A stretch of 64,000 bases of DNA from Paucidesulfovibrio gracilis DSM 16080 (GTDB lineage: Bacteria > Desulfobacterota > Desulfovibrionia > Desulfovibrionales > Desulfovibrionaceae). Shown piece after piece: positions 4,714-6,140 of this stretch. Location: the NCBI RefSeq assembly GCF_900167125.1, contig NZ_FUYC01000007.1:1-64000 (forward strand), read 5' to 3'. The position numbers and the translations under genes are program-made. How positions within the stretch are numbered: position 1 is the stretch's first letter; the number at the start of each line of letters is the position of its first letter. Below the pieces are notes generated by a model. The model did no database searches and had not been told where the DNA came from. It saw nothing but the letters and a program-made list of their open reading frames with translations.

Positions 4714-5106
4714 ATGTCGGAAATCCAAATGATCCACACCTCCAAAGCCCCGGCCGCCGTGGGACCGTATTCCCAAGGAACCGCATGGAACGCTTTGGTC
4801 TTTGTCAGCGGCCAGCTCGGCCTGCTGCCTGAGAGCGGCACTTTTGCCGGTGGTCCCGAAGACTTCGAATCGCAAGCACGTCAGGCACTGCGCAATATGT
4901 CCGCCATTCTGGATGCCGCTGGATCAAGCCTGGAGCAAGTGCTCAACGTGGAAGTCTTTCTGACCGACATGGGGCAATTCGCCACATTCAACGCCATCTA
5001 TGAAGAATTTTTCAACACGCACAAGCCTGCACGAGCCGCCGTGGAAGTCGCTGGCCTGCCTAAAGGCGGGCTGGTCGAGGTAAAATGCACCGCCACAAAA
5101 TCGTAA
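4714..5106 (+). CDS. ridA: RidA family reactive intermediate (enamine/imine) deaminase
   Basis: This 130-residue protein is of normal RidA (YjgF/YER057c/UK114) length. The family hydrolyses 2-aminoacrylate and related enamines or imines made by PLP enzymes, protecting other PLP enzymes. The N-terminal KAPAAVGPYSQG, the catalytic arginine in HKPARAAVEV (R107) and the acidic residue in LVEVKC (E122) are all present. It acts as a cytosolic trimer in characterised relatives. It overlaps no neighbour, follows the Gate protein by two bases, and lies just upstream of the aromatic-pathway attenuator region. Confidence 0.92.
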   Translation: MSEIQMIHTSKAPAAVGPYSQGTAWNALVFVSGQLGLLPESGTFAGGPEDFESQARQALRNMSAILDAAGSSLEQVLNVEVFLTDMGQFATFNAIYEEFFNTHKPARAAVEVAGLPKGGLVEVKCTATKS

Positions 5107-5107
5107 C

Positions 5108-5137
5108 TTGACACACCTTTTCACCAAAGTGTAAACA
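5108..5137 (+). promoter_or_regulatory. Candidate promoter and small palindrome upstream of the Phe leader
   Basis: TTGACA at 5108-5113 is a perfect -35 hexamer located two bases after the ridA stop. With an 18-bp spacer the -10 would be TAAACA (5132-5137), which is weak. The same bases form one arm of the palindrome TAAACA-A-TGTTTA (5132-5144). If this promoter is real, the transcript starts very near the leader ATG and the leader peptide may be translated from a leaderless or near-leaderless mRNA. Read-through from ridA is the alternative. Confidence 0.35.
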
Positions 5138-5224
5138 ATGTTTATGACGACCCGAATCCGCACGAATTTCTTTTTTGTGTTTTTCTTTTTTACGGCTTTC
5201 CGCGGCCTCGGGGTGACGTTGTAA
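5138..5224 (+). CDS. Phenylalanine-rich leader peptide (pheL-like attenuator peptide)
   Basis: This 28-codon open frame starts at ATG 5138 (or in frame at ATG 5144) and ends at TAA 5222. Nine of its residues are phenylalanine, including FFFVFFFF at codons 11-18, and a further Phe codon falls at 5198-5200. This resembles the E. coli pheA leader peptide, which has a comparable Phe run. No good Shine-Dalgarno site is visible. It precedes, by 103 bp, the gene for the first committed enzyme of the ADTH aromatic pathway, and it overlaps the left arm of a predicted antiterminator at 5199-5207. It is too short to be picked up by ordinary gene finders. Confidence 0.72.
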
Positions 5225-5286
5225 TCGATTTTCAACATATCAGATCGCCTCAAAGGGTCGCGGATCGTTCCGCGGCCTTTTTTCTT
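5199..5286 (+). terminator. Transcription attenuator: terminator with competing antiterminator
   Basis: The terminator stem pairs 5256-5264 (GGTCGCGGA) with 5269-5277 (TCCGCGGCC), nine pairs including one G-U, with a TCGT loop and TTTTTT at 5278-5283. The identical 9-mer TCCGCGGCC also occurs at 5199-5207, inside the leader frame just after the Phe run. It can pair with the same 5256-5264 arm and so exclude the terminator. A ribosome stalled on the Phe codons (5168-5191) would leave 5199-5207 free and allow read-through. A ribosome that reaches the stop at 5222 would cover it and the terminator would form. Confidence 0.72.
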
Positions 5287-5327
5287 TGGCTCCGGAACAC
5301 CCCGATCCCGGCGAAAAGGAGCTGACA

Positions 5328-6140
5328 ATGCTGCTGGGAAAAGCTGTTCGAATGGAACGCATCATGAATCGGGACAATGGCCGTTTGATCGTGGTTCCCC
5401 TGGATCACGGAGTAACAGTCGGTCCGATCTATGGCTTGGTGGATCTGCGAGACACGGTCAACAAGGTAGCGGACGGAGGAGCCAACGCCGTGCTCATGCA
5501 CAAAGGCCTGCCCCGTTGTTCGCACCGGGGAACAGGACGCGACATCGGATTGATCGTACATCTTTCCGCATCCACGGCACTCTCCCCCACACCCAACGCA
5601 AAAACCATGGTCGGTACCGTGGAAGACGCCATCAAACTTGGAGCCGACGCGGTAAGCATTCACGTGAACCTGGGCGACGAAAGCGAACGCTCCATGCTCT
5701 CGGATCTCGGTGCACTCTGCTCCCGGGCCGGAGACTGGGGAATGCCCGTACTGGCCATGCTCTATGCTCGCGGTCCCAAGGTAAAAGATGAATACGCCCC
5801 GGATGTCGTGGCCCACTGCGCCCGGGTGGGAATGGAGCTTGGAGCCGACATCGTCAAGGTCAACTACACGGGTGATCCGGAATCATTCCAACGCGTCACC
5901 GAAGGATGCTGCGTTCCCGTGGTCATTGCTGGCGGCCCCAAAGTCGACAGCAACTACGACCTGGTCCGCATGGTTCATGACTCGGTCCAGGCGGGCGGAG
6001 CCGGCATTTCCGTGGGGCGAAACATCTTCCAGCACGACCATCCCGCCCGTCTGGTGCGCTCCCTGTACAAGGTCGTCCATGAGGGATGGAGCGTGGAACA
6101 GGCTCTTCCGCTCCTGGATTCTCCCGAAAGCGCACAATAA
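5328..6140 (+). CDS. 2-amino-3,7-dideoxy-D-threo-hept-6-ulosonate synthase (class I aldolase family)
   Basis: This 270-residue (beta/alpha)8 aldolase-family protein has the FbaB/LacD-like pattern of archaeal and deltaproteobacterial ADTH synthase. It should condense L-aspartate semialdehyde with a deoxy-ketohexose phosphate, the first step of the alternative route to 3-dehydroquinate used in place of DAHP synthase. Visible landmarks are [11 protein letters not shown] near residue 25, YARGPK (Y146) and the Schiff-base lysine K177 in DIVKVNY, then a GGPK phosphate loop. ATG 5328 with AAGGAG upstream was preferred to an upstream in-frame TTG. No partner dehydroquinate synthase II gene follows: a strong terminator closes the unit. 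Regulation by a Phe attenuator is indicated by the upstream leader. Confidence 0.85.

Follow-up and report, generated by a model that had tools for sequence, protein, structure and literature searches.

In enteric bacteria, the pheL-pheA and pheST attenuators (Rfam RF01859, Phe_leader) combine a leader peptide containing a run of Phe codons with mutually exclusive antiterminator and terminator arms and a U-tract. One leader can also sense several amino acids, as in ilvGMEDA of E. coli, where a single multivalent leader carries Ile, Val, and Leu codons. End-product control may instead be divided among isozymes, and the E. coli DAHP synthases AroF, AroG, and AroH are assigned to Tyr, Phe, and Trp by allostery together with the TyrR and TrpR repressors. 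Classical trp attenuators of Corynebacterium and Streptomyces contain complementary gGCC-rGCy-GGCC triples in the antiterminator and terminator, and the same study of Actinobacteria saw only Trp codons and trp operon targets, with no phenylalanine or tyrosine elements (PMC1262725).

A Phe-rich leader upstream of ADTH synthase

The window, the whole stretch of DNA analyzed here, is 64,000 nucleotides long and comes from a sulfate-reducer-like genome. It includes a gene for 2-amino-3,7-dideoxy-D-threo-hept-6-ulosonate (ADTH) synthase, which opens an unusual pathway to the aromatic amino acids (5328-6140; TIGR01949 and PRK07226; its 393 bits exceed the curated TIGR01949 cut-off of 299). The upstream ridA gene ends at a stop codon at 5106, leaving an intergenic region of 221 nt (5107-5327). 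In this region, all on the forward strand, are a leader frame rich in Phe codons, a duplicate of the terminator right arm, and the terminator itself, with 13 pairs and a U-tract. The longest reading of the frame (5138-5224) has 28 codons, nine of them Phe, with its stop codon at 5222, and its regulatory run FFFVFFFF (5168-5191) is kept as a Phe run in relatives. The terminator pairs 5252-5264 with 5269-5281 around the loop TCGT (-20.8 kcal/mol) and is followed by T residues at 5278-5283, and the predicted transcript 3' end lies near 5283. A sequence-only reading of this locus had called the terminator perfect; the stem lies where it was placed, but two of its 13 pairs are G.U and it is therefore not strictly perfect. 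The same reading correctly saw that TCCGCGGCC occurs twice (5199-5207 and 5269-5277) and that either copy can pair with GGTCGCGGA at 5256-5264, with one G.U. The full antiterminator 5' arm spans 5198-5208 within the leader frame and pairs with 5254-5264, so that the terminator left arm is common to both structures; covariation and folding support all three arms. A Shine-Dalgarno (SD) sequence, AAGGAG, precedes the ADTH synthase gene at 5316-5321.

Chance does not readily produce this layout. Among 3,000 dinucleotide shuffles of the intergenic region, 13 contained a frame with at least six aromatics in eight residues and 5 contained a terminator below -15 kcal/mol, but none (0/3000) contained both. 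Together with the covariation of the arms in relatives, this bears out the earlier proposal of a phe attenuation layout before ADTH synthase. The locus has a short frame rich in Phe codons, an intrinsic terminator, and a competing antiterminator with covariation (under-powered in a tree-aware test), as attenuators generally do.

Like pheL-pheA and pheST, the window has a Phe-run leader, exclusive arms, and a U-tract. Unlike in those systems, the downstream genes here encode ADTH synthase, a symporter, or a CoA ligase, the start appears to be near-leaderless, and the leader frame itself contains the antiterminator arm. The RF01859 covariance model gave no match to 5050-5340 at E values up to 5 and did not reach its gathering score of 55 bits, and the best-scoring relative (L007) attained 31.9 bits against the same threshold. 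The window attenuator thus works like Phe_leader but is not a member by score. The Rfam covariance models of the T-box families did not match the window, where a conserved leader frame is found instead. An Rfam search of the window and its relatives returned no family of which they are members, and the other weak matches (e.g., mir-942) were set aside as chance. GGCC-type complementary triples are common to the classical trp attenuators and the ADTH leader attenuators.

The start of the leader was examined across 138 related leaders. A TTGACA-like box (at least 5/6 matches) is present in 125 of them, and the distance from the start of the box to the leader ATG is 36-38 nt in 98 of those 125. 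SD matches before the leader ATG are mostly no longer than 3 nt (102/138), whereas those before the ADTH gene are mostly 5-8 nt. Because of this box-to-ATG spacing and these short SD matches, the first codon of the leader ORF probably coincides with the transcription start or follows it by a few bases. In the window, the -35 box TTGACA lies at 5108-5113, no SD sequence precedes the leader, and the -10 region is weak; a hexamer TAAACA at 5132-5137, placed by comparison with relatives, follows an 18-nt spacer, matches the consensus poorly, and was not reported by a consensus promoter scan of the window. ATG 5144 is the one that matches the conserved distance from TTGACA. The nearest relatives, L086 and L087, lack ATG 5138, which would sit at the -10 box, so the true leader probably runs from ATG 5144 (5144-5224), in line with the orthologous Phe leaders of its clade. 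The 28 codons and nine Phe of the sequence-only reading, although placed at the right coordinates, would then become 26 codons and eight Phe.

A shared element, TGTAAACAATGTTTATG (5130-5146), ends in the leader ATG and is a possible operator. It looks like an inverted repeat overlapping the -10 region and is possibly a repressor site common to the window and symporter leaders. Its 17-base pattern, TGTAAACANYGTTYATG, occurs at only two sites in the 3.18-Mb genome when at most one mismatch is allowed, namely the window leader and the Phe leader of the symporter. This restriction to two Phe leaders, and the overlap with the -10 region, would suit a transcription factor that recognizes TGTAAACANYGTTYATG as a TyrR-like half site and exerts the main control, with the hairpin secondary. 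We regard this as very unlikely, as the element is not kept in most relatives (e.g., L087 and the Pseudodesulfovibrio set) and such a factor leaves the codon content and the arm covariation unexplained. A factor at TGTAAACANYGTTYATG may nevertheless act in addition to the attenuator.

Conservation, covariation, and the proposed switch

The comparison drew on 199 distinct regions upstream of ADTH synthase genes, taken from one genome family and from named contigs, and 198 of these regions were long enough for the leader count. Leaders with at least six aromatics in eight residues were found in 139/198 regions compared with 0/198 shuffled ones, and terminators below -10 kcal/mol in 143/199 compared with 1/100 shuffled; some spurious automatic leader calls (L162, L168, and L172) were left out of the leaders used in the argument. 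Cultured relatives that share the leader include Pseudodesulfovibrio pelocollis (L011) and Salidesulfovibrio brasiliensis (L012). Other families sampled within the phylum likewise have such leaders before most close ADTH homologues, with a different tail and terminator sequence. There, a second version of the attenuator is seen in L216-L239: a tail of the GLP type comes after the aromatic cluster, and the hairpin is of the GGCCGTGG/CCACGGCC type.

The terminator left arm (GGCCGCN'GGC) pairs with the end of the leader frame, for which GCC-NGC-GGC is typical. Over 10 hairpin-anchored columns and 66 distinct sequence triples, 89% of antiterminator pairs are standard, falling to 32-45% when the arms are slid, and the observed pairing (0.886) exceeds all 2,000 partner permutations (maximum, 0.868). 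The first base of a Cys/Arg/Ser codon forms the informative column and pairs with the left arm in 88% of cases (T-A, C-G, A-T, and T-G). The same left-arm base pairs with the terminator's own right arm in 42%, the mismatches being mostly G.A and G.G. Because this variable column pairs so much more often with the leader than with the right arm, the comparison indicates that the terminator left arm is tuned to the leader. By a regex-based count, which includes some misplaced anchors, leader and left-arm bases form Watson-Crick pairs in 107/143 cases, against a mean of 62 and a maximum of 82 in 10,000 permutations. Individual changes among close relatives in the genus follow the same pattern: the operon leader of the host genome (L002) has AGC with T in the arm, while a leader from the same genus (L166) has TGC with A, and for the leader arm, left arm, and right arm, in that order, the window leader (L001) and L086 have T/A/T where L087 has C/G/C. 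A tree-aware pair test pointed in the same direction (about 3 same and 0.1 opposite), with too few independent pairs for significance. The antiterminator arm and the terminator, the two alternative stems that the sequence-only reading asked to be compared in relatives, do covary.

This pairing also bears on the residues of the ACGLG type that form a conserved tail after the aromatic run. Such a tail would suit a TnaC-like arrest, in which free Phe itself, rather than the supply of Phe-tRNA, is sensed by the leader peptide as it is made. RNA pairing explains the tail, however, since a change in the Cys/Arg/Ser codons goes with a change in the left arm; the rest of the peptide is unconserved in sequence and length, and the aromatic residues swap with gene content. 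Direct sensing by the peptide is therefore exceedingly improbable.

Folding was performed with the ribosome placed at different codons of the 28-codon numbering. When the polymerase has reached 5266-5270 and a ribosome is held at Phe codons 11-16, the antiterminator arm pairs with a probability of about 0.99, whereas a ribosome at the stop codon gives 0 for the antiterminator and 0.91 for the terminator. Once the right arm is made, the terminator outweighs the antiterminator at equilibrium even with a stalled ribosome, and the switch must therefore be kinetic. A kinetic decision agrees with the general theory of ribosome-mediated attenuation (PMC1183508). Some features count against such a switch: the -10 region is weak, the leader has no SD sequence, and the antiterminator arm is 14-24 nt ahead of the stop codon, where a ribosome that has reached the stop would mask just part of it. 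In folds without a ribosome, the 5' part of the leader pairs with the leader end.

From the layout, its conservation and covariation, and the predicted folds, we infer the start site, the stalling, the termination, and the response to Phe as follows. Transcription would start at ATG 5144 or a few bases before it, with the ribosome trailing RNA polymerase. When Phe-tRNA is ample, the ribosome would translate through the Phe codons as far as the stop codon at 5222 and mask or disrupt the arm at 5198-5208, allowing the hairpin at 5252-5281 to form and transcription to end near 5283. When Phe-tRNA is scarce, the ribosome would stall within 5168-5191 and leave the arm at 5198-5208 free; this arm could pair with 5254-5264 as soon as the latter is made, before the right arm exists, and the polymerase would continue into ADTH synthase. 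That a Phe-responsive, ribosome-mediated transcription attenuator controls ADTH synthase is, in our judgment, highly probable.

Leader codons, isozymes, and further targets

A tree of the 199 enzymes sorts the leaders by isozyme and context. In the clade of the window gene, all 18 of 18 rows have Phe-rich leaders, and nearly all adjoin ridA and the gene upstream of it; relatives that keep ADTH synthase while lacking the Phe codons and the duplicate arm, which would have spoken against the original proposal, were not found there. Another solo isozyme type has Tyr-only leaders with runs of YYYY, and Phe, Tyr, and Trp codons all occur in the leader of the ADTH copy at the head of the aroB'-pheA-aroA-tyrA-trp operon. 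In the genomes tabulated, the operon copy with its mixed leader is accompanied by a Phe-only or a Tyr-only isozyme, never by both. Repeated independent origins of the Phe-only and Tyr-only leaders were considered and dropped, as AU tests do not reject a single origin of the main groups. Tandem duplicated ADTH synthase genes head the operon in L037, L099, L106, L107, L111, and L024, with one mixed leader before the first copy. In two genomes without a close ADTH synthase match (L296 and L297; G052 and G011), an aromatic leader directly precedes pheA (prephenate dehydratase-like).

Twenty operons were fetched further downstream so that gene content could be set against leader codons. Trp codons occur in the leader cluster of all 8 of 8 operons with trpE-trpF and in 3 of the 9 without trp genes for which enough sequence was available (Fisher p 0.007), and by this comparison the codon content of the leader follows the gene content of the operon. 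A neutral frame or a U-rich tract would give no such match. This result bears on a rival account, in which the hairpin is a plain terminator of ridA, ADTH synthase has an independent promoter after it, and the Phe-rich frame arises by chance from U-rich sequence. The position of the hairpin downstream of ridA fits that account, and U-rich stretches are easily read as Phe; orthologous leaders, however, use Tyr (TAT/TAC) and Trp (TGG) codons that a U-tract does not give, leaders stand without ridA before operons, the symporter, and the CoA ligase, the leader and terminator arms covary, and a search for a promoter-like site between the hairpin and the gene found none. A plain ridA terminator is thus highly improbable, and an attenuator that reads aromatic codons is the reading we retain.

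The host genome has three ADTH synthases: the window copy with its Phe leader, the head of the aro-phe-tyr-trp operon (L002, L004) with the leader ...FYFWYWF..., and a third without an aromatic leader (L003/L005; G000:C8:61149-61946), which lies downstream of a phage-repressor-like gene (S24 peptidase type) and belongs to a clade without leaders throughout. The earlier suggestion that Phe controls the first step of the pathway would therefore hold for the window copy, which has the Phe codons, but this is one of three isozymes and not the whole step. Likewise, Phe would be the amino acid read here, but a Phe-only reading is too narrow, given the Tyr-only and Phe/Tyr/Trp leaders before other isozymes. 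A genome search found neither a conventional aroB nor a type II DAHP synthase, nor any recognizable DAHP synthase, the sole DAHP-type match being KDO8P synthase. Since neither a recognizable DAHP synthase nor a standard AroB is present, the ADTH route is probably the sole entry to aromatic amino acids in this genome.

A covariance model built from the attenuators (R1) identified the two ADTH leaders and two further leaders in this genome. The second Phe leader, MSDYILGLGAFFFFFFFFFILARGKEGTV (L281:1065-1242; G000:C2:301094-301242), has nine Phe in a row and precedes a small frame and a sodium:solute symporter (PF00474), the substrate of which could be Phe or phenylacetate. The third, MQESTSPLCFTGFFFGFFFRRPIQPVA (L282, minus strand; G000:C4:89877-90001), scores lower at 30 bits, lies directly before phenylacetate-CoA ligase-like and ACT-domain genes, and is kept in L291 and L292; the ligase-like protein scores 601 bits, just below the NCBIfam cut-off of 646. 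Orthologues of the symporter and the ligase-like gene keep aromatic leaders in several relatives, and no aromatic leader was seen at symporter orthologues in some of the other genomes examined. In G032 the symporter comes after a PaaK homologue. An indolepyruvate oxidoreductase alpha subunit is present in this genome, so a route from phenylacetate through phenylpyruvate to Phe is possible, judging from known anaerobic metabolism. L290 (G057:C13) has two tandem symporters, with a leader of the Phe type (NFLFAFFGF) for one and of the Tyr type (YFYAYYGY) for the other; such a pair lends itself to tests of substrate specificity. The notion of a single locus confined to ADTH synthase is accordingly too narrow, as the leaders are phylum-wide and also precede a transporter and an acyl-CoA ligase gene in this genome.

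A possible tRNA-sensing code for aromatic metabolism

Like ilvGMEDA, the operon of this genome has a multivalent leader (Phe/Tyr/Trp), but in the ADTH leaders the set of amino acids varies from isozyme to isozyme of a single enzyme and tracks the genes of the operon. As with AroF, AroG, and AroH, first-step isozymes are split between end products; here, however, the assignment is apparently made by leader codons and on a different enzyme, ADTH synthase. A gene cluster for aromatic amino acids in Desulfovibrio hydrothermalis changes together under pressure, and attenuation is not mentioned there (PMC4162548). In the literature we searched, which includes few subscription journals and is weak evidence of absence, no attenuation or other regulation of ADTH synthase is described, in agreement with the earlier statement that no case was known; no paper connects attenuation and leader peptides with Desulfovibrio in a way that bears on this system, and the ADTH compound appears in passing mentions only. 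What seems to be new is the division of codon sets between first-step isozymes, in an archaeal-type ADTH pathway and with near-leaderless leaders.

On balance, we lean toward the view that the ADTH route is controlled mainly by near-leaderless attenuators that form one family across the phylum, with codons that list the products made below each leader and divide the isozymes among them, and that this family was recruited in some lineages to symporters with Phe or Tyr leaders and to phenylacetate-CoA ligase. If this is true, synthesis, uptake, and aryl-acid salvage of Phe would form one tRNA-sensing regulon. The leaders would then be a readable code, in which codon content predicts the end product that controls each isozyme, and would give substrate hypotheses for poorly annotated transporters such as the tandem symporters of L290. 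Isozyme specialization would have come about through changes in a 30-codon leader, not in an enzyme or a repressor, which would make its evolution testable.
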